NCBI GenBank assembly: GCA_001003725.1
Contig: LCPR01000005.1
Location: forward strand, 1-64,000
Reading direction: 5' to 3'
DNA: 64,000 nucleotides
Source of the DNA: Candidatus Saccharibacteria bacterium GW2011_GWC2_48_9
Lineage (GTDB): Bacteria > Patescibacteriota > Saccharimonadia > Saccharimonadales > Saccharimonadaceae
Shown: one piece after another, positions 28,630-36,576 of the stretch
Position numbering within the stretch: position 1 is the first letter of the stretch
Layout: every line of letters starts with the position of its first letter
Made by a program: the position numbers and the translations under genes
The notes under the pieces: generated by a model
Database searches by the model: none
The model's input: the letters and a program-made list of their open reading frames with translations, nothing else
Told to the model about the DNA's origin: nothing

Positions 28630-30093
28630 TTAAAATGGTATCTCATCGGAAGAGGTAACAACCAGCCTAACCCTGTTTCGTTCCAGGCATGTAGCCAATG
28701 ATGACAGCCCATTCTGACCGTTGATAAGTTCGATGGCAGTGTCAAATGTCATTGTTTGCGTCCAACCGGTTGGCTCAGCTGCATCTAATTTTTCAATGAG
28801 TTCTGCGAGCAATTCAGGATGATTAGCGATTGTAGGTAGAGCAATCTCAAGGCCCGCATTCTTAAGCCTGAACTTGTTCTCGTCATTTACGAAACTCTCG
28901 AGTATAACTCCACGAATGAATGATCTTGGATAATTCGCGTAGTCAGTTGCCAGTGCTGTAAGGTACGTATTTGCACTACCCGCTGAGCCATCAGCGGCTT
29001 GCAATATGTTTCTACCAAGCTGCTCCTGTTGATCTTCGTCAAGATCAGATACTTGTGACCGGTCGTTGTTGCTGAGCAGGCTCATCGCAATATTTTGACG
29101 GGGCCAGTTGTACGATTTTAGCTCAGAAATTAGCTCGAAATAAGCAGTCATTGTCTTTACATGGGCAGCTTTGAAGACGGCAATACCCAGCGCATAATAG
29201 GTAAGCTTCTGTGCTTCACTCAGCCTGCCTGCCTCCAATAATGGTTCCAGTCGCTTAACTCCAGTCGGTCTTTCGCTAGCGTTTGTAAGCGCATATGATA
29301 CTAGACTATCATTTGCTCTTGACCCGATCGCATCGTATAACGCCCTTTTGCGCAGAAAAATGAGTTGTGATATTTGGGGGCAACCCAGAACAAACTCGTG
29401 CCACTGATCCTCATTAGCGAAACTAGTACCAACTTCTTTGAGAAACTCAGATAAAAACCACACTCCTCTCATCACTATTGGTGCTAGTGTAGGGTCGCGA
29501 TACATGACCTCTAACTTGCTACTATATACGTTAGCTAGATACCTGTATGCCACGGGATCAACCCTAACGCTCATGTCATTTGCATATGCCTTGACTCGTG
29601 TCTCACTATTTTCTAGGAAATCGATATTGCCTGTAAGCTTATCAATAAAACCTTCTAGATACTTTTTGCGATATAGGGTCGGTCGACTGAGCACCTCTTC
29701 GCTTACAACATTTGCGGCACTAGCCAACTCTTCTTCTGATGGTGCCGTCTCATACGGGTGGCCGTACACGCATCGCATCGTATAAATATAGGTAAGTTTT
29801 TGTAGCACGACATCGTCTATAAGGTCATAATCCTTGGCTTTCTGCAAAATGAAGTAGTCTGCGCTGCCACGGCTTGCCTCTACCGCCTCGATCGCAGTAA
29901 CCATTGGCAACGCAGCAGCATCTCTGGTGGCAGCTTCTTTGAGCTTGCGCTTTAATGCCTCGGCACAAGTGAGCCAGATTAAGATATATGCTCCCCTAAG
30001 CGCCCCTACTGCTGCCGACTGAACCGCTTCATTAAAGAGAGGCTTATCTTCTTCGATCAAAATACGATCCGCGTATGATGATATGTCCGCCAT
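28630..30093 (-). CDS. HEPN-like large protein of unknown function, 487 aa
   Basis: No full-length match comes to mind. The N-terminal 160 residues are helical and contain R107-x4-H112 (in MRCVYGHPYE), the spacing of the HEPN ribonuclease motif. It follows a conserved-looking WLTCAEALKRKLKEA helix, as in DUF4145/HEPN proteins. The remaining 320 residues are helical, rich in Leu and Ala, perhaps a HEAT-like sensor part. It starts three bases after the restored end of the Abi_C gene, so the two form one operon. Confidence 0.6.
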   Translation of the reverse strand: MADISSYADRILIEEDKPLFNEAVQSAAVGALRGAYILIWLTCAEALKRKLKEAATRDAAALPMVTAIEAVEASRGSADYFILQKAKDYDLIDDVVLQKLTYIYTMRCVYGHPYETAPSEEELASAANVVSEEVLSRPTLYRKKYLEGFIDKLTGNIDFLENSETRVKAYANDMSVRVDPVAYRYLANVYSSKLEVMYRDPTLAPIVMRGVWFLSEFLKEVGTSFANEDQWHEFVLGCPQISQLIFLRKRALYDAIGSRANDSLVSYALTNASERPTGVKRLEPLLEAGRLSEAQKLTYYALGIAVFKAAHVKTMTAYFELISELKSYNWPRQNIAMSLLSNNDRSQVSDLDEDQQEQLGRNILQAADGSAGSANTYLTALATDYANYPRSFIRGVILESFVNDENKFRLKNAGLEIALPTIANHPELLAELIEKLDAAEPTGWTQTMTFDTAIELINGQNGLSSLATCLERNRVRLVVTSSDEIPF

Positions 30094-30096
30094 GGT

Positions 30097-30886
30097 TTAA
30101 GACTCCCGAGCTTTATGTGTTTCAACCAAGAACACAGTTAAGGCTAATGATGAGTTTACGGCTAAGCGAGCGTGACGAGCCGATGCCGTATAGATTACGC
30201 AGTTCAGCCATGTTATGCGATATGGTGCCCAGGTTTGAGAGCATACGTTTAATAGTGTCAGCACCCTTTGCGCTATTAGGGATTGCATCAGGTACCAGCC
30301 TTAATTCTTTGGCAGTAAGCTTAACAAGTTCAGATGCTTCTGTGCTGTTCTTGTATGCAATACCAAGCTCATCCAAGATGTGCTTACAGACTGTCTCGAT
30401 GAGCTCCTTAGCGCTGCCTATGGCTGCGTCTGGATCATCTTCAATAGAGCCACTTAATCGACTAAAGGCACGCGTAATCTGGTTCTCGTCCAACACATCA
30501 GCGCCCAGTAAAACGTCCATATTACCCGTACTTCCTGCTCGCTCGGTTAAGCGTGCATCTACAAACACATAGCCATCGACTGACAAGAGTTTTATAAGTT
30601 TGTCGTACTCCGTTTTTGCCCCTTCGTAATCGTTCGGAACGCCTATTTCAATTAAGGCAATCTCAATCGCACTGATCACCTTACGAACGTCTGCACTATT
30701 ATCCCAGTCAATGGATGAATAGTATCCAGATACGAGGCTCCTGCGTGCACCACTGATCGTCTCATCAGGCGTACCATATTCAATGTCGGCATCATCAAAG
30801 AAACCTGAAATCTGGTTAAGTACCGAGAAATGTGACAGATACTCTGAAAACGCACGCTTTGTCCTCTTGCTTAGTGTTTGCGGCAC
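30097..30886 (-). pseudogene. Abi_C-domain abortive infection protein, frameshifted at its active-site motif
   Basis: The first frame (30886 down to 30122, GTG start) carries an Abi_C-type region: DPDAAIGSAKELIETVCKHIL, then NLGTISHNMAELRNLYG. Family members continue with G-x-GH and a final helix of the type RHARLAV...FLVETH. Here that helix (ARHARLAVNSSLALTVFLVETH) is in the next frame and ends at 30097, three bases before the next gene. The shift lies near 30165-30185 and removes the His of the R-N...H HEPN motif. Either the toxin is inactivated or there is a base error in the assembly. Confidence 0.75.
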
Positions 30887-31199: not shown

Positions 31200-31275
31200 T
31201 GGTGCGGGTAAGGAGACTCTAACTCCTGGCCTCATCCTTGGCAAGGATGCGCTCTAACAACTGAGCTATACCCGC
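31200..31275 (-). tRNA. tRNA-Gly (anticodon GCC)
   Basis: Acceptor GCGGGTA/TACCCGC, anticodon stem CATCC/GGATG with loop TTGCCAA giving GCC, encoded CCA. Confidence 0.95.
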
Positions 31276-31377: not shown

Positions 31378-31453
31378 TGGTGGCTCCTCCCAGACTTGAA
31401 CTGGGGACACAAGGCTCTTCAGGCCTCTGCTCTACCAACTGAGCTAAAGAGCC
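31378..31453 (-). tRNA. tRNA-Phe (anticodon GAA)
   Basis: Acceptor GGCTCTT/AGGAGCC, loop CTGAAGA giving GAA, encoded CCA. With tRNA-Gly it borders the carotenoid operon on the left. Confidence 0.95.
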
Positions 31454-31643
31454 ACGACAGTTGAATGATCAAACTCCGTATATTTTACTAAATTTCGAAC
31501 GGTTTGCCAAGGTGTTAGGCGATAGACTGGGTTTGCGTTGGCTGCGGACACACCTATCTTGAGTGAATTCGGGATGTTTTTGCTGAGTTTGCTATGTAAA
31601 TCTTTTCAATAAAAGGCGGCAATAGGCTATAATTAAGTAACTA

Positions 31644-32708
31644 ATGTCTAATACACATACGCAAGAGCAAACATCGATACGGAGTATCGATGAGACGATA
31701 GACACCTACTTTTTGAGGAATATAGATGATGCCGCACAAATAAGCGGGTACTATGAGCAGCTCTGGCGCGATATGCACGTGCTTATCAAGTCTGGTGGAA
31801 AACGGCTGCGCCCACGCATGACGCTTCGTGCCTACGCGGCATTTGGTGGCAAAGAGAGTGCGAGTGTAGTATCTATCGCCACTTCGCAGGAACTACTGCA
31901 TATGAGCTTGCTGATCCACGACGATGTGATCGACCGAGACTATGTACGCTACGGCGTTGATAATATTGCTGGTAAATATTTTAAGACTCACTACGCACAT
32001 GTAGCAGATGAATCGAGCCGCATGCACTACGCGTCGAGCGCCGCGATACTTGCAGGCGACCTGCTGATATCTGGAAGTTACCGCATGATTGCCGAAAGTG
32101 GCGCCAGCGCCGAGGCTATCGCGAGTGTCATGGCTATTCATGGACGTAGTATATTCGATGTAGCTGGCGGAGAGTTGATAGATACGGAGTCCGCTTTTCG
32201 CGAACTTGGTGAAGTTGATGCACGTACGGTGGCGTTATATAAGACGGCAAGCTATACGTTTATGAGTCCGCTTACTATCGGTGCGACTCTTGCGGGTGCC
32301 TCACAAGACACACTCGATAAACTCGGGCGTTTTGCGCAGAGCTTAGGCGTGGCGTATCAGCTGCGTGACGACGTAATAGGTATATTTGGCGATGAGCGCA
32401 CTACTGGCAAGCCGACTATCGGCGATATTCGTGAAGGTAAGCATACTTATATGGTAGAAGAGTTCTATTCCTTAGCTACGTCAGAACAGAAAAAACGTTT
32501 CGAGCAACATTTTGGCGACCAGTCTGTAACGCAGAAACAAGCCGATGAAATCAAAAATATTCTAATAGAAAGCGGTGCGCTGAAGAGTACGGAAAATACA
32601 ATTTCAGCCTACATGACTATTGCCGAAGAAGAATTATCGCTGATAGCAGAGGGTGATGTCCAGCAGCTGCGTGAACTGATAGCTGTCGTGACGAAGCGAG
32701 ACAAATAA
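31644..32708 (+). CDS. crtE: geranylgeranyl diphosphate synthase of the carotenoid operon
   Basis: Trans-type polyprenyl synthase, 354 residues, that condenses IPP onto allylic diphosphates to give GGPP. First Asp-rich motif LLIHDDVIDRD; second region YQLRDDVIGIFGDERTTGKP, the form with DDxxG and TGKP seen in actinobacterial IdsA/CrtE enzymes. SGGKRLRPRM near residue 50 is the IPP-binding segment. TATAAT lies ten bases before the ATG and is the promoter of the six-gene operon. The stop overlaps crtB by one base. Confidence 0.94.
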   Translation: MSNTHTQEQTSIRSIDETIDTYFLRNIDDAAQISGYYEQLWRDMHVLIKSGGKRLRPRMTLRAYAAFGGKESASVVSIATSQELLHMSLLIHDDVIDRDYVRYGVDNIAGKYFKTHYAHVADESSRMHYASSAAILAGDLLISGSYRMIAESGASAEAIASVMAIHGRSIFDVAGGELIDTESAFRELGEVDARTVALYKTASYTFMSPLTIGATLAGASQDTLDKLGRFAQSLGVAYQLRDDVIGIFGDERTTGKPTIGDIREGKHTYMVEEFYSLATSEQKKRFEQHFGDQSVTQKQADEIKNILIESGALKSTENTISAYMTIAEEELSLIAEGDVQQLRELIAVVTKRDK

Positions 32709-33532
32709 TGGAGCTCTACGAACGCGCCTCGTACGAAGTAAGTAAGCTTGTCACAGAGCGATATTCAACGTCGTTCACTATGAGTTCGAGGCTATTTGCG
32801 AGTACTATGCGCCGTGACATATATGCGATATACGGCTTAGTGCGTATAGCTGATGAAATAGTAGACACCTACCGAGGCGACGACGCACTTGATTTGCTCA
32901 AGCGACTTGAAGCGGATACATATGCTGCTATTGAGCGAAGTTATGACACAAACCCTGTGGTGCACGCATTTGCACTCACTGCGCACCGCTACGGTATTGA
33001 TGAATCATTGATAGGTCCATTTTTCGATAGTATGGCGATGGATCTCAGCCCTATCGAGTATACCCCGGAGCTCTACAAAACATACATCTACGGCTCTGCA
33101 GAAGTAATAGGGTTGATGTGTCTCAAGGTGTTTTGCGTAGACGACAGTGAAATGTATCAACGACTGGCGCCCGGTGCCCGAGCACTCGGCTCAGCCTATC
33201 AAAAAGTGAATTTCTTGCGTGATGTGGCGGCGGACTATGACGAGCTTGGTCGCCTGTATTTTCCGGGTGTAGTGTACGAGAACTTCGATGATACTCAGAA
33301 ACAGGCGATTGTAGACGATATAGAGGGAGATTTTTCTACCGCACGAAGCTACGTAGAAAAGTTACCAGCAAACAGCCAAAAAGCAGTACTGCTGAGCACA
33401 CTGTATTACGGTGAATTGCTCGAAAAAATTAAAGCAACACCAGCGAAAGTGCTAAAAAAAGAACGCGTACGCATAGATGGCCGCCGTAAATTGTGGTTAC
33501 TCGCAAGCGTAACGGCCGGGGCAAGGCGCTGA
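32708..33532 (+). CDS. crtB: phytoene synthase
   Basis: Joins two GGPP head to head to make phytoene. 274 residues with the squalene/phytoene synthase motifs: SFTMSSRLF, RIADEIVDTYRG (first Asp motif) and VNFLRDVAADYDELGRLYFP (second motif). It is compact but complete. Starts in a TAATG overlap with crtE and ends in a TGATG overlap with crtI, so translation is coupled. Confidence 0.94.
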   Translation: MELYERASYEVSKLVTERYSTSFTMSSRLFASTMRRDIYAIYGLVRIADEIVDTYRGDDALDLLKRLEADTYAAIERSYDTNPVVHAFALTAHRYGIDESLIGPFFDSMAMDLSPIEYTPELYKTYIYGSAEVIGLMCLKVFCVDDSEMYQRLAPGARALGSAYQKVNFLRDVAADYDELGRLYFPGVVYENFDDTQKQAIVDDIEGDFSTARSYVEKLPANSQKAVLLSTLYYGELLEKIKATPAKVLKKERVRIDGRRKLWLLASVTAGARR

Positions 33533-35055
33533 TGGCAACTCGCTGCGTAATTATAGGTGGAGGCATTGGCGGTCTGGCCACTGCATCCCTCCTGGCAAAA
33601 GCTGGGCTAGAGGTTCATGTCTACGAAAAAGACAGTTTGGTCGGCGGCAGGGCGGGAAGGTTTGAGAAAGATGGCTTTGTGTTTGATACAGGTCCGTCGT
33701 GGTATCTGATGCCAGATGTGTTTGAACATTTCTTTGAGCTGATGGATGAGCCTATCGGAACCTGGCTCGACCTGCAAAAGTTAACACCCGCATACAAAGT
33801 GTTTTATGAACACACCGAGCCAATAGTAGTAACGGGCAATTTGGAACGAGATGCAGATACCTTTGAGTTAATCGAGGCTGGTGCCGGCGACGCACTGAAA
33901 CACTACGTGTCTCGCAGCAAAGATATCTACGAATTGTCACTCAAGCATTTTTTGTATACCAATTTTCAAGACCCGCGCGACTTAGTGAACCTGTCGGTGC
34001 TCCGCAAAAGTCTACTGCTACCCACACTTCTCACTAAGCCTATTCATTCGTATGTTGGAAGCTATGTGAGCGACATGCGACTCAAGCAAATCCTAGAGTA
34101 TCCAATGGTATTCCTAGGAACATCACCTTTCTCTGCGCCCGCGATGTATAGCTTGATGAGTGCGCTTGACTTTGATGAAGGCGTGTTTTATCCGAGAGGC
34201 GGCATGTATACGATTATCGAAAGTATCGAGGCTATTGCTCGAAAAAACCGCGTCACTATCCATACCAATAGCGAGACACAGAAAATCAACACTGCAAACG
34301 GTGTTGTGACGGGGATAACGCTCACAGATGGTGCGCAGGTTGAGGCGGACATCGTGATATCGAACGCCGATCTGCACTATACCGAGACTGCACTCTTAGA
34401 TGCGCCTGACCGTTCGTACGACGAGAAGTATTGGCAGAGCAAAGAGCCCGGGCCTTCTGCACTGCTGATGTACCTGGGTGTAGATGGAGAAGTGCCGGAA
34501 CTTGAACACCATAGTCTGCTGTTTGTAGACACATGGCAACAAAACTTCGAGGCAATCTATGCAGACAAACAAATGCCTCATCCAGCATCCATATATATCT
34601 CCAAGATTAGCCAGACGGATACCGGGGCGGCGCCTGCGGGTAAGGAGAACGTCTTCGTGTTGGTGCCACTTCCCGCAGGTGTTGATATCGAGGAGGTAGA
34701 GTTGGAGCAATTAGCCGACACCTATCTCGCGCAAATCGAAACTATGACAGGTGCGGATTTGCGCAGCAGATTGCTTGTGAGAGAGTTGTTTGGGCCAAAT
34801 GATTTTCGGACAAAATATTACTCTTGGCAGTCGTCAATGCTAGGGCAATCCCATCTGCTTAAGCAGAGTGCGTTTTTCCGTACTAAAAATGTCAGTAAAA
34901 AAGTACGAGGACTTTACTACGTAGGCGGCTCTACGACGCCTGGTATCGGACTGCCTATGTGTCTGATAGGCGCAGAGTTGATATACAAGCGCATTGCTGG
35001 CGATAAGCGCGGCGGTAGAGTCGCGCATATCGATACAATAGGGGAGAAATCTTGA
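33532..35055 (+). CDS. crtI: phytoene desaturase
   Basis: FAD enzyme that takes phytoene to lycopene by four desaturations. N-terminal dinucleotide fold VIIGGGIGGLATASLLAKAG, then GGRAGRF and DTGPSWY; C-terminal GLYYVGGSTTPGIGLPMCLIGAEL is the CrtI signature. 507 residues is normal. The ATG at 33532 overlaps the crtB stop; an open frame 13 codons upstream is not needed. Confidence 0.95.
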   Translation: MATRCVIIGGGIGGLATASLLAKAGLEVHVYEKDSLVGGRAGRFEKDGFVFDTGPSWYLMPDVFEHFFELMDEPIGTWLDLQKLTPAYKVFYEHTEPIVVTGNLERDADTFELIEAGAGDALKHYVSRSKDIYELSLKHFLYTNFQDPRDLVNLSVLRKSLLLPTLLTKPIHSYVGSYVSDMRLKQILEYPMVFLGTSPFSAPAMYSLMSALDFDEGVFYPRGGMYTIIESIEAIARKNRVTIHTNSETQKINTANGVVTGITLTDGAQVEADIVISNADLHYTETALLDAPDRSYDEKYWQSKEPGPSALLMYLGVDGEVPELEHHSLLFVDTWQQNFEAIYADKQMPHPASIYISKISQTDTGAAPAGKENVFVLVPLPAGVDIEEVELEQLADTYLAQIETMTGADLRSRLLVRELFGPNDFRTKYYSWQSSMLGQSHLLKQSAFFRTKNVSKKVRGLYYVGGSTTPGIGLPMCLIGAELIYKRIAGDKRGGRVAHIDTIGEKS

Positions 35056-35369
35056 TGCAATGGATATATTTGGGGCTGCTGCTCTTTAGTATTTCGGGCC
35101 TGATGACGCTAGACTGGCGGCACAAGCTTGCATTTTGGTATGATGCCCGACGCACAGCATTAACTATTGGATTTGGTATCGCAGTGTTTGTAGTTTGGGA
35201 TATTTTAGGGATAGTTTTGGGCATATTCTTTCACGGCAATAGTCCGTATACGTTACCGTTTCGCCTTGCCCCCGAGTTTCCGATAGAAGAACTGTTCTTT
35301 TTGCTTTTGCTTTGTTATGTGACGTTGATATTGTACAGAGGGCTGGGTAGATGGCAACGTACCTCTTAG
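35055..35369 (+). CDS. crtYe: heterodimeric lycopene cyclase subunit CrtYe/CrtYc
   Basis: 104 residues with three membrane segments. LTLDWRHKLAFWYD and PEFPIEELFFLLLL are typical of the first subunit of actinobacterial heterodimeric lycopene cyclases (lycopene cyclase domain). ATG at 35055 overlaps the crtI stop, with a GGGGAG site. It overlaps crtYf by 19 bases. Confidence 0.92.
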   Translation: MQWIYLGLLLFSISGLMTLDWRHKLAFWYDARRTALTIGFGIAVFVVWDILGIVLGIFFHGNSPYTLPFRLAPEFPIEELFFLLLLCYVTLILYRGLGRWQRTS

Positions 35370-35638
35370 TTAACCTGCTATTTATGGCACTCGTTGCACT
35401 GTTGCTGCGTATACGCCCACGTATGCCGTCGCGAAAGTGGTGGATCATGCTCGCTGTGCTACTGGCGCTTACTGCGGTATTTGACTCTATGATAGTGTAT
35501 TTTGAGGTTGTCGGGTACGACTCAAGCAAATTGCTTGGTGTGTATGTAGGCTACGCGCCGATAGAAGATTTCTTCTACGCGATACTCGCAGCGGTACTAG
35601 TGCCTTGGGCCTGGAATAGATTTGGAGCTAAAAAATGA
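35351..35638 (+). CDS. crtYf: heterodimeric lycopene cyclase subunit CrtYf/CrtYd
   Basis: 95 residues, three membrane segments, with the second-subunit motif YVGYAPIEDFFYAI. With CrtYe it forms the cyclase that closes the end rings; whether epsilon, gamma or beta rings are formed cannot be read from the sequence. The stop overlaps crtEb by four bases. Confidence 0.92.
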   Translation: MATYLLVNLLFMALVALLLRIRPRMPSRKWWIMLAVLLALTAVFDSMIVYFEVVGYDSSKLLGVYVGYAPIEDFFYAILAAVLVPWAWNRFGAKK

Positions 35639-36492
35639 TGACGACACTCAAAAAACTTATCATGGTATCGCGTCCGATATCTTGGATAAATACCGCATAC
35701 CCATTTGCGGTCGCGTATTTGTTAGCGGGCGGTACCAACATGACACTGCTCGCTATCGGCACGATCTTCTTCTTAATTCCGTATAACCTTCTCATGTATG
35801 GAGTGAATGATATCTTTGATTATGAGTCTGATATTCGCAATCCACGAAAAGGCGGTATCGAAGGTATGCGCGAACAAAAAGAGTTGCACCCTGTCATCGC
35901 AAAAGCGGTGGTTATCAGTACGCTTCCATTTGTTGCCTGCCTTGCGTTCGTAGGGACATTGCAGGCAAACTTGGTGCTCGCGGCCGTGCTGTTCTTTGTG
36001 ATTGCATATTCCATTGCAAAGCTTCGTTTTAAAGAACGGCCGATTTTAGACTCAATCACGAGCAGCATTCATTTTGTTGGCCCGGCTGTGTATGCACTTT
36101 CGCTCACCAGCTTTTCTCCAGAGGCTTGGCCGTATATTGTAGCGTTTTTGTTGTGGGGTATGGCGAGCCATGCATTTGGGGCGGTGCAAGATATCATACC
36201 GGATAGGCAAGGGAAACTGGCATCTATCGCGACCTACTTGGGTGCGCGTGCTACTGTGTATTTCGCCGCTCTAATGTATCTATTGGCAGCTCTACTACTG
36301 TCCATGCAGCCATTGCCATATGCGATCGTCGGCGGTGTGTGTTTGGTGTATGTGGCGAATATGTTGCCGCTGCATAGTATCACCGACGAAACCTCGCACG
36401 ACGCCAACAAGCCGTGGCGAAGATTTATTTGGCTCAATCTGTTTGCAGGTTTTGTGATTACGATGATTCTACTGGCAGAGAATCTGCTATAA
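35635..36492 (+). CDS. crtEb: lycopene elongase, UbiA-type prenyltransferase
   Basis: 285 residues, eight or nine membrane helices. The first Asp motif YGVNDIFDYESDIRNPRKGG matches lycopene elongases (CrtEb, LbtB types), which add C5 units to lycopene to give C45 and C50 carotenoids. As the last gene after both cyclase subunits it completes a C50 pathway. The TATAAT box for tRNA-Cys lies across its stop codon. Confidence 0.92.
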   Translation: MMTTLKKLIMVSRPISWINTAYPFAVAYLLAGGTNMTLLAIGTIFFLIPYNLLMYGVNDIFDYESDIRNPRKGGIEGMREQKELHPVIAKAVVISTLPFVACLAFVGTLQANLVLAAVLFFVIAYSIAKLRFKERPILDSITSSIHFVGPAVYALSLTSFSPEAWPYIVAFLLWGMASHAFGAVQDIIPDRQGKLASIATYLGARATVYFAALMYLLAALLLSMQPLPYAIVGGVCLVYVANMLPLHSITDETSHDANKPWRRFIWLNLFAGFVITMILLAENLL

Positions 36493-36502
36493 TAATCGAG
36501 AT

Positions 36503-36576
36503 GGCGCGTTGGCGGAGCGGTTACGCAGAGGTCTGCAAAACCTTGTAGGCGGGTTCGACTCCCGCACGTGCCTCCA
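36503..36576 (+). tRNA. tRNA-Cys (anticodon GCA)
   Basis: Acceptor GGCGCGT/ACGTGCC, loop CTGCAAA giving GCA, discriminator T as expected for Cys, encoded CCA. TATAAT at 36488-36493 is the likely promoter. It borders the carotenoid operon on the right. Confidence 0.95.

Follow-up and report, generated by a model that had tools for sequence, protein, structure and literature searches.

We analysed a stretch of 64,000 nucleotides (the window; contig LCPR01000005.1, positions 1 to 64,000) from Candidatus Saccharibacteria bacterium GW2011_GWC2_48_9. Six open reading frames were confirmed on the forward strand between positions 31644 and 36492, and all five junctions between them overlap (by 1, 1, 4, 19 and 4 nt). 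The first gene, crtE (31644-32708), encodes a geranylgeranyl diphosphate (GGPP) synthase with the motifs DDVID and DDVIG, and crtB (32708-33532) encodes a phytoene synthase with DEIVD and DVAAD; family profile searches matched them to polyprenyl_synt (1.3e-46) and SQS_PSY (3.8e-43), respectively. The phytoene desaturase gene crtI (33532-35055) has an ATG at 33532, the longest frame beginning with a GTG at 33493, and its product scored 509 bits against crtI_fam (TIGR02734, cut-off 238). Two lycopene cyclase subunits follow, crtYe (35052-35369; TTG start, PIEEL motif) and crtYf (35351-35638; PIEDF motif), both matching CarR_dom (TIGR03462; 50.9 and 50.4 bits, cut-off 39.4); crtYe had no Pfam match. 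The last gene, crtEb (35635-36492), encodes a lycopene elongase of the UbiA family (PRK13105, 402 bits, cut-off 217) with the motifs NDIFDYESD and QDIIPD. Alignment of CrtE, CrtB, CrtYe, CrtYf and CrtEb revealed intact catalytic motifs in all five.

The window holds, in one cluster, a GGPP synthase, a phytoene synthase, CrtI, a two-subunit CarR-type cyclase and a UbiA elongase. The original prediction of a complete six-gene C50 set of actinobacterial type with overlapping stops and starts is borne out by the reading frames, family matches and motifs. The order that it had called actinobacterial, E-B-I-Ye-Yf-Eb, indeed recurs in an Arthrobacter locus and, according to PMC5401885, in C. glutamicum. 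Judged by content, order, motifs and kinship, all read from the sequence, the cluster is an actinobacterial-type operon for a cyclic C50 carotenoid. GC3 and the codon usage of the whole operon lie within the range of 15 window genes. Taken singly, crtYe (0.551), crtYf (0.359) and crtEb (0.327) deviate in codon usage more than the window genes do (0.151-0.313), for crtYe and crtYf perhaps because the genes are small.

The operon site and its flanks

The operon was said to lie between tRNA-Gly/tRNA-Phe and tRNA-Cys, and all three genes were located: tRNA-Gly (31200-31275) and tRNA-Phe (31378-31453) on the minus strand, the latter forming the left border of the site, and tRNA-Cys (36503-36576) on the plus strand, forming the right border. 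A TATAAT (31628-31633, plus strand) resembling a -10 box is found 10 nt 5' of the crtE start codon. Such boxes were present at 19 of 22 operon starts versus 57 of 205 control ORFs, and the operon transcript is predicted to be near-leaderless. A second TATAAT (36488-36493, plus strand) overlaps the crtEb stop codon; it is likely the -10 box of tRNA-Cys, and it also occurs in G041, a congener that lacks the operon.

Synteny of the operon's flank extends to all four genomes of the genus, and one of these belongs to a named Saccharibacterium. Two of the four carry the operon (G000 and G084) and two do not (G041 and G186). The congener G084 has it at the same site as the window, G041 shows an operon-free version of that site, and G052, from another genus, has a deletion scar. 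The empty site and the scar point to loss of the operon. Relatives carry the operon and RpoB on one contig (for example G269:C6, G294:C2, G198:C2 and G111:C1). Contamination or a chimeric contig was rejected because the flanks are syntenic in four genomes and the operon of G084 occupies the same position, as well as through the RpoB-linked operons of the relatives. The contig is thus Saccharibacterial by flank synteny and not, as might have been feared, actinobacterial; the genome's own assembly is 97.75% complete in 39 contigs. Operon neighbours differ between most genera. Residence on a mobile island at a tRNA was not supported as a rule: 5 of 24 loci in families f1, f6 and f12 had a tRNA within 1.5 kb, and these were of differing kinds.

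Distribution and history of the operon

The elongase had been assigned an actinobacterial distribution. Contrary to that assignment, 40 of 392 genomes in the class to which the window belongs had a match to its family above the cut-off, versus 5 of 296 Actinomycetota. Among 24 other f1, f6 and f12 genomes over the elongase cut-off, 21 carried all of the operon with its gene order unchanged, and in the remaining three it was cut by contig ends. All six genes were present in 56 of the 67 Actinomycetota loci found within the best 80 of 568, some of the others being cut by contig ends.

From these 67 loci, the CrtEb tree included 18 together with the Arthrobacter locus L082 and four loci from the Actinomycetota sample, the CrtI tree 18 with L082, and the six-gene tree 13 with L082. 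An earlier tree used 35 of the 67, with L082, L107 and L122 assigned to the same group; six loci that duplicated named records (L032, L036, L042, L048, L049 and L073) entered it in one copy each. L107, labelled 'bacterium', was Saccharibacteria-like by tree and was then moved out of the actinobacterial group. Six trees (CrtEb, CrtI, CrtB, CrtE, Ye+Yf+Eb and all six genes) recovered Actinomycetota as a single clade, and in none of them were the window genes nested among the sampled actinobacterial sequences. The window sequences grouped with Saccharimonadales in the CrtEb, CrtI, Ye+Yf+Eb and six-gene trees. The closest relatives outside the class were Actinomycetota loci; in the Ye+Yf+Eb tree, f1 and f6 united with Actinomycetota at 100/100, in trees that hold no experimentally studied member by name. 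The operon and RpoB trees, compared without G372, G339 and G017 (which had no RpoB match), agreed in 7 of 18 splits, against a mean of 0.22 for random trees, and showed supported conflicts elsewhere. Exchange among Saccharimonadales therefore also occurred, and a vertical-only history was ruled out. Of the long-standing vertical clade that the original prediction had held against a gain, the age stands and the pure verticality does not. From these trees, the operon looks like a long-resident relative of the actinobacterial one and not a recent copy.

Saccharibacteria are epibionts in contact with their hosts; the bacterium of the window is tiny and probably host-dependent, with actinobacteria as its likely hosts. 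Gain in recent times from an actinobacterial host living today, which is how we read the predicted host gain, appears very improbable for the window's lineage: the operon is patchy, with two carriers among four congeners, and CrtEb is ~51% identical to that of Arthrobacter versus 41-47% to class families outside f1 and f6, but the window stands beside a congener (78% CrtEb identity) within Saccharimonadales while Actinomycetota are monophyletic, and overall codon usage is native. An older exchange may have run in either direction. The six-gene and CrtI tests lean towards an Actinomycetota clade arising from within Saccharimonadales, CrtEb alone being indecisive, and descent of the Actinomycetota operon from a Saccharimonadales one, from epibiont to host, is a real possibility that falls short of being probable. 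In the six-gene tree rooted on L065, the 14 Actinomycetota rows (100/100) joined the f6 row L047 (98/96), and a single clade of the 22 Saccharimonadales rows was rejected (AU, p=0.022); for CrtI, a grouping of the f1, f6 and f3/f13/f9 rows without Actinomycetota was rejected as well (p=0.0006). In the CrtEb and Ye+Yf+Eb trees with LyeJ-type outgroups, f1+f6 and Actinomycetota paired to the exclusion of f3, f13, f34 and the group with a fused elongase. However, CrtEb is compatible with all Saccharimonadia as a single clade (p=0.152), and once long rows were removed (L057, L065, L066, L138, and the LyeJ rows of haloarchaea and of the class itself) neither branching order was rejected (p=0.44 and 0.52). 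The best CrtI tree put f1 and f6 on the same side of a branch (74/70), Ye+Yf+Eb made them a single clade (95/82), and leaving CrtE out of the six-gene set lowered the SH-aLRT of L047+Actinomycetota to 83; inner branches are short, outgroups long and other phyla thinly sampled.

A slightly less likely alternative is that Saccharimonadales acquired the operon long ago from stem Actinomycetota, at a time when the sampled actinobacterial lineages had yet to split, or that both acquired it from a third source. It would fit the identical gene order of Arthrobacter, the reciprocal clades of the Ye+Yf+Eb tree, the epibiont-host contact argued in PMC9296517, and PMC2889829, where the C50 Actinobacteria are treated as a single lineage for carotenoids. 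Against it, a source in Actinomycetota only would need several transfers, with the f3/f13, f6 and f1 rows falling outside the actinobacterial clade, and Actinomycetota, as sampled, carry the family less often than the class does. Both old-exchange readings concern origin and are compatible with our preferred explanation of the operon as an old resident of Saccharimonadales.

Precursor supply and predicted function

We searched 20 genomes, hand-chosen rather than drawn and including the window's own, for prenyl-related enzymes. Each C5 route was judged by one marker: IspH for the MEP pathway (0 of 20; 10 of 14 controls positive) and the GHMP kinase C domain for mevalonate (0 of 20; 14 of 14 controls positive). 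The earlier remark that the window contains no gene for IPP synthesis thus holds, and for these two markers it extends to the whole genome. The trans-prenyl synthase family PF00348 was found in 17 of the 20, the only match in the window's genome being crtE. G041, G186 and G052 had neither PF00348 nor an intact elongase, and G069 had PF00348 without a CrtEb-type operon, but with a LyeJ-like elongase and CrtI. UppS was present in all 20. Type 1 Idi exceeded its cut-off in two genomes, the window's own not among them, and gave weak sub-cut-off matches in ten further ones, including it. Since IspH and GHMP kinases are missing and CrtE is the sole trans-prenyl synthase, C5 units are probably host-derived.

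From these missing markers and the gene content we infer activities, import, product and role as follows. Because the MEP and mevalonate markers are both missing, the IPP/DMAPP supply, or that of longer allylic diphosphates, would have to be external, most likely from the host. CrtE would build GGPP from C5 or allylic diphosphates taken up by the cell and possibly also prime UppS; CrtB would join two GGPP into phytoene, and CrtI would desaturate phytoene to lycopene. CrtEb would then add one C5 unit to each lycopene end, for about ten C5 units per pigment overall, and CrtYe/CrtYf would close the rings, giving a pigment of the decaprenoxanthin, sarcinaxanthin or C.p.450 type (ring type is not readable from sequence). 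By the prevailing view, Candidate Phyla Radiation bacteria acquire most of their membrane from a host. The likeliest role of the pigment is to stiffen and protect a membrane made of host lipids; the photoprotection and membrane stiffening first suggested are candidate roles.

Other uses of the operon fit less well. Selection on CrtE mainly for FPP or GGPP for undecaprenyl diphosphate, with the pigment secondary or absent, is improbable; CrtE is the genome's only trans-prenyl synthase and UppS is present, but G041, G186 and G052 have UppS without any trans-prenyl synthase, which is therefore dispensable for undecaprenyl diphosphate, and the other five genes keep their place and, where checked, their motifs. 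Cyclic C50 carotenoids are not known to be retinal precursors. A supply of retinal or antenna carotenoid to a rhodopsin, once suggested for this operon, is the least credible reading of all: none of 151 family genomes, the window's own included, had a PF01036 match above the cut-off (two others gave weak matches). Freshwater Saccharibacteria with proton-pumping rhodopsins do exist, but those rhodopsin bearers were reported to be without blh (PMC9296517). An acyclic (bacterioruberin) pathway, marked by LyeJ, CrtD and CruF without a cyclase, does not fit, the CrtYe/CrtYf cyclase being present and CrtEb lying outside the LyeJ-like rows.

Taken together, these results suggest as the most likely function the making of a C50 carotenoid for the membrane out of prenyl diphosphates that the host supplies. 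We hold with good confidence that a cyclic C50 operon has long resided in Saccharimonadales and that its pigment, made from imported prenyl diphosphates, would stiffen and protect the membrane. A ten-C5 pigment in cells without C5 synthesis would turn prenyl diphosphate import into a testable necessity; the pigment's mass could trace operon-bearing Saccharibacteria, and presence or absence within one genus (G000 and G084 versus G041 and G186) offers a natural comparison. That the operon is kin to the actinobacterial one is a sign of genes passing between epibionts and their likely hosts and raises anew the question of where the actinobacterial C50 pathway arose. A bolder reading, less likely than not, is that the classical actinobacterial operon came from Saccharimonadales epibionts; the host phylum would then owe a whole pigment pathway to an epibiont that still runs the same one on its host's C5.

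Comparison with known systems

Open-licence papers yielded no cyclic C50 operon in Saccharibacteria or Patescibacteria, only an acyclic report (PMC9948471); the carotenoid terms sought are absent from PMC12592800 and PMC8406219, and PMC8692599 gives, in its accessible part, a count of 9 gene clusters for Patescibacteria but not their kind. The acyclic report describes the bacterioruberin genes lyeJ, crtD and cruF in Patescibacteria from Lake Baikal, among them a Saccharibacteria genome. As in the window, a lycopene elongase is found together with genes for a C50 carotenoid; in contrast to it, the route is acyclic and, in that report, forms no single cluster. In our trees, elongases read as LyeJ-like (L070, L071, L078, the haloarchaeal L083 and eight actinobacterial rows) fell outside the CrtEb clade.

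Further families within the class (f29, f33, f35 and f39) have GT2-fused CrtEb operons. They link CrtYe, CrtYf and CrtEb as the window does, with crtI, crtE and crtB adjoining where fully seen, but differ in the fusion of elongase to GT2 glycosyltransferase, for which open-licence papers gave no precedent, in a divergent gene order and in a distant CrtI.

The operon of Arthrobacter sp. StoSoilB13 (L082) has the window's order, E-B-I-Ye-Yf-Eb, yet its CrtEb is ~51% identical and the rows from Actinomycetota cluster in a clade apart. C. glutamicum shares the six biosynthetic genes and their order (PMC5401885), but the window has no gene between crtE and crtB. According to the same source, C. glutamicum synthesises C5 units itself and possesses, besides CrtE, the major GGPP synthase IdsA; in the window's genome, by contrast, CrtE is the sole GGPP-type synthase found and the C5 markers IspH and GHMP kinase are missing.

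The operon and its genomic setting

The original prediction placed six overlapping reading frames of a cyclic C50 carotenoid pathway (crtE-crtB-crtI-crtYe-crtYf-crtEb) at 31644-36492, and we found all six there, with overlapping ends. A family scan assigned CrtE to PF00348, CrtB to PF00494 and CrtI to TIGR02734, and alignment with relatives showed the motifs DDVID and DDVIG in CrtE and DEIVD and DVAAD in CrtB. CrtYe (which has no Pfam match) and CrtYf are CarR-type cyclase subunits of TIGR03462 with the motifs PIEEL and PIEDF, respectively, while CrtEb matches NF009608/PRK13105 (402 bits versus a cut-off of 217) and carries NDxxDxxxD and QDIIPD. We take these motifs to be those expected of CrtE, CrtB, CrtYe, CrtYf and CrtEb. 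The flanking tRNAs were also as predicted, with tRNA-Gly and tRNA-Phe to the left and tRNA-Cys to the right. Left of the tRNAs lie two minus-strand ORFs, one without a Pfam or PHROG match (28630-30093) and one matching phrog_23253, a phrog without assigned function (30122-30886).

The window covers bases 1-64000 of a 146,890-base contig (C5), in an assembly of 1,067,676 bases that is 97.75% complete and 0.11% contaminated. The order M48 peptidase, LemA, stomatin/SPFH-like protein (a label assigned by eye), tRNA-Leu, hydrolase, tRNA-Cys is common to the window's genome (G000) and its congeners G084, G041 and G186. Because this order is kept in four genomes of the genus, a chimeric origin of the operon is ruled out.

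A search across loci L032-L076 revealed a TATAAT-like box 6-12 nt 5' of the crtE start in 19/22 operons (31628-31633 in the window), although these operons are related and hence not independent; among control ORFs, for each of which as many as four candidate starts were considered, the figure was 57/205. The position of the box suggests a near-leaderless transcript. One protein cluster occurs near the operon in 7/25 loci (L037, L040, L043, L044, L046, L050 and L076); the six members read resemble, by eye, sensor histidine kinases, which may reflect chance or regulation.

Distribution, inheritance and loss

In a profile scan of the class Saccharimonadia, the elongase model exceeded its cut-off in 40/392 genomes (57/392 at E<=0.001). 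These comprised 20 genomes of the window's own family (f1), 4 of f6, 1 each of f12, f3 and f13, and 13 of other groups (8 in f29, 2 in f33 and 1 each in f34, f35 and f39). Among 296 evenly drawn Actinomycetota genomes, centre included, 5 were over the cut-off and 91 matched at E<=0.001; we read the elongases of 21 of the 91, at 146-173 bits, as LyeJ type, the elongase of the acyclic C50 (bacterioruberin) route. Besides the window's own, 24 genomes of f1, f6 and f12 exceeded the cut-off; 21 have the complete operon as E-B-I-Ye-Yf-Eb, and contig ends interrupt it in 3. The best 80 of 568 relatives from a scan of named genomes included 9 labelled Saccharibacteria or Patescibacteria, 67 Actinomycetota, 1 Sporosarcina that sits within the actinobacterial clade, and 3 otherwise labelled that group with Saccharibacteria (L084 'Chloroflexi', L107 'bacterium' and L088 'uncultured bacterium'). 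The operon and genome size of L084 ('Chloroflexi bacterium', 1.1 Mb) and L107 ('bacterium', 0.8 Mb) fit Saccharibacteria, and these two are likely mislabelled or unlabelled.

Operon distances tracked those of RpoB (Mantel r=0.489, p=0.0001; 21/22 complete operons, G372 being left out for want of an RpoB match). The operon and RpoB trees shared 7/18 splits, compared with a mean of 0.22 and a maximum of 3 in 500 label shuffles. Supported conflicts between the two trees occur, for example over G137 and G325, and operon neighbours vary among most genera; the operon looks old and has also moved. The operon genes have a GC3 of 0.476-0.524, inside the range of 15 window genes (0.382-0.533). The codon distance of the whole operon, 0.171, likewise falls inside the window-gene range of 0.151-0.313, which crtYe (0.551), crtYf (0.359) and crtEb (0.327) exceed.

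The tRNA-Phe/tRNA-Cys gap is occupied by the operon in G000 and G084. In G041 it measures 377 bases and lacks the operon; no crt remnant matched there except ~25 bases at the crtEb end, which likely also contain the tRNA-Cys promoter. A genome scan found no elongase in G186, whose contig stops near the operon site. In G052 (L077:7495-7908), a 138-aa frame runs from the first part of crtE straight into the last part of crtEb, an in-frame deletion scar. Its junction lies within a short direct repeat, CCAGTGGCGGC, present in both crtE and crtEb of G050, and the flanks of the two genomes are 90-91% identical. The genus of the scarred L077 also contains an intact operon (L035), and G374 and G349 retain a partial crtEb alone.

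Direction of exchange

The original proposal was gain from an actinobacterial host. Is a recent gain of this kind supported? Actinomycetota form one clade in the careful CrtEb tree of 78 rows (23 rows, 95/92), the CrtI tree of 64 rows (19 rows, 100/100), the Ye+Yf+Eb tree of 78 rows (100/97), the quick CrtB and CrtE trees (98 and 94) and the six-gene tree of 37 rows rooted on L065 (100/100). Recent copying from any of the host lineages sampled is therefore disfavoured.

The 28 f1 and f6 rows form one clade in the CrtEb tree (83/88), as do these families in the Ye+Yf+Eb tree (95/82), where their union with Actinomycetota reaches 100/100. When rooted on LyeJ-type elongases, the CrtEb tree places f34, the fused group (see below) and f3/f13 outside f1+f6 and Actinomycetota (100/96, 100/99), with a program warning that long branches meet in the outgroup. 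Constraining all Saccharimonadia CrtEb to one clade was not rejected (AU p=0.152), and without long rows and far outgroups alternative orders of the fused group, f1+f6 and Actinomycetota were not separated (AU p=0.44 and 0.52). In the CrtI tree, 22 f1 rows, with which L050 is grouped, form one clade (100/99); f3, f13 and f9 rows come next outward with haloarchaea beyond them, and f29, f34 and f35 have distant CrtI. Uniting f1, f6 and f3/f13/f9 to the exclusion of Actinomycetota was rejected for CrtI (p=0.0006), while uniting f1 with Actinomycetota to the exclusion of other f6 rows was not (p=0.098); f1 and f6 lie on the same side of one weakly supported branch (74/70). In the six-gene tree, the f6 row L047 joins Actinomycetota (98/96 careful, 96 quick), and a constraint uniting all 22 rows of Saccharimonadales was rejected (p=0.022); removing CrtE and adding L066 lowered the support for L047 with Actinomycetota to SH-aLRT 83. 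Overall, the trees lean towards, without settling on, an Actinomycetota operon that branches from within Saccharimonadales. The model's attraction of long branches to one another carries over into the AU tests, letter composition varies across many rows, and other phyla are thinly sampled.

Products, building blocks and use of the pigment

In 12 genomes of f29, f33, f35 and f39 (loci L052-L056 and L058-L064), CrtEb carries a C-terminal GT2 glycosyltransferase fusion (669-697 aa), with PF01040 and PF00535 in both intact fusions scanned. The full set of six is present at five loci (L054, L055, L061, L062 and L063), where crtYe-crtYf-crtEb::GT and crtI-crtE-crtB lie on opposite strands. Four of the 12 are broken by contig ends; crtYf was not detected at L060, crtI matches are scattered across frames at L059, and nothing beyond the fused gene was detected at L064. 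In f34 (L057), the order is divergent without a fusion. Searching 130 sequences (129 loci plus the window) with the GT model returned just these 12 and two more fusions of the same kind, in G040 (L069:2872-4890, minus strand) and the near-identical G020 (L072:8102-10114, plus strand). No cyclase genes were detected near either, and their elongase half is degraded (NDxxDxxxD is lost in G040); perhaps the GT half alone is retained. The fused protein of the 12 genomes is likely a bifunctional elongase-glycosyltransferase, and glycosylated C50 carotenoids are suggested for f29, f33, f35 and f39. Separately, in L070, L071 and L078 (f9, f29) a LyeJ-like elongase adjoins a CrtI closely related to the f3/f13 one. 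The f29 copy of this elongase, in G010, is very similar to the f9 copies, and G010 has a fused CrtEb as well.

The lack of IPP synthesis genes, originally noted for the window, extends to the whole genome for IspH and the GHMP kinase C domain, which we take to include mevalonate kinases and IspE. Both were absent from all 20 genomes scanned (hand-chosen rather than drawn, own included), while 10/14 and 14/14 control genomes matched, respectively. UppS was present in 20/20 and a PF00348 trans-prenyl synthase in 17/20, the window genome's one match being the operon crtE. The three genomes without PF00348 (G041, G186 and G052) are also without an intact elongase; G069 has PF00348, a LyeJ-like elongase and CrtI and no CrtEb-type operon. 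Idi type 1 exceeded its cut-off in 2/20 (12/20 at E<=0.001, mostly weak), and in G069 its gene lies ~3.6 kb from the elongase. UppS requires an allylic primer, so relatives that lack every trans-prenyl synthase probably take one up from outside, and the same import may supply CrtE in operon-bearing cells. Passages of a freshwater CPR survey likewise limit isoprenoid steps outside Gracilibacteria to C10-C20 (PMC9166423).

The window's assembly has two UppS matches (G000:C15:25-678 and G000:C32:6268-6813), one partial and possibly a contig-end duplicate. G061, G111, G158 and G012 have additional UppS matches of weaker score, and at G117:C3:254406-256035 a second trans-prenyl synthase adjoins a divergent UppS-like gene.

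Supplying a rhodopsin, once suggested as the pigment's role, finds no backing in the family, as 0/151 genomes (own included) have a rhodopsin over the cut-off. One named operon member derives from a 'CG_2015' sample, presumably Crystal Geyser groundwater, and light protection may therefore not be the sole use. We infer that the pigment adjusts or protects a membrane built of host lipids.

Among the matches listed from the open-licence literature, we found no published cyclic C50 operon in Saccharibacteria. Sections of earlier studies describe Saccharibacteria rhodopsins without blh (PMC9296517) and groundwater Saccharimonadia enriched in secondary-metabolite functions such as terpenoids, there with no pathway named (PMC12577380). 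Parts of another report acyclic C50 genes in Patescibacteria, including a Saccharibacterium, and cite work on Arthrobacter that links its membrane adaptation with C50 carotenoids (PMC9948471).
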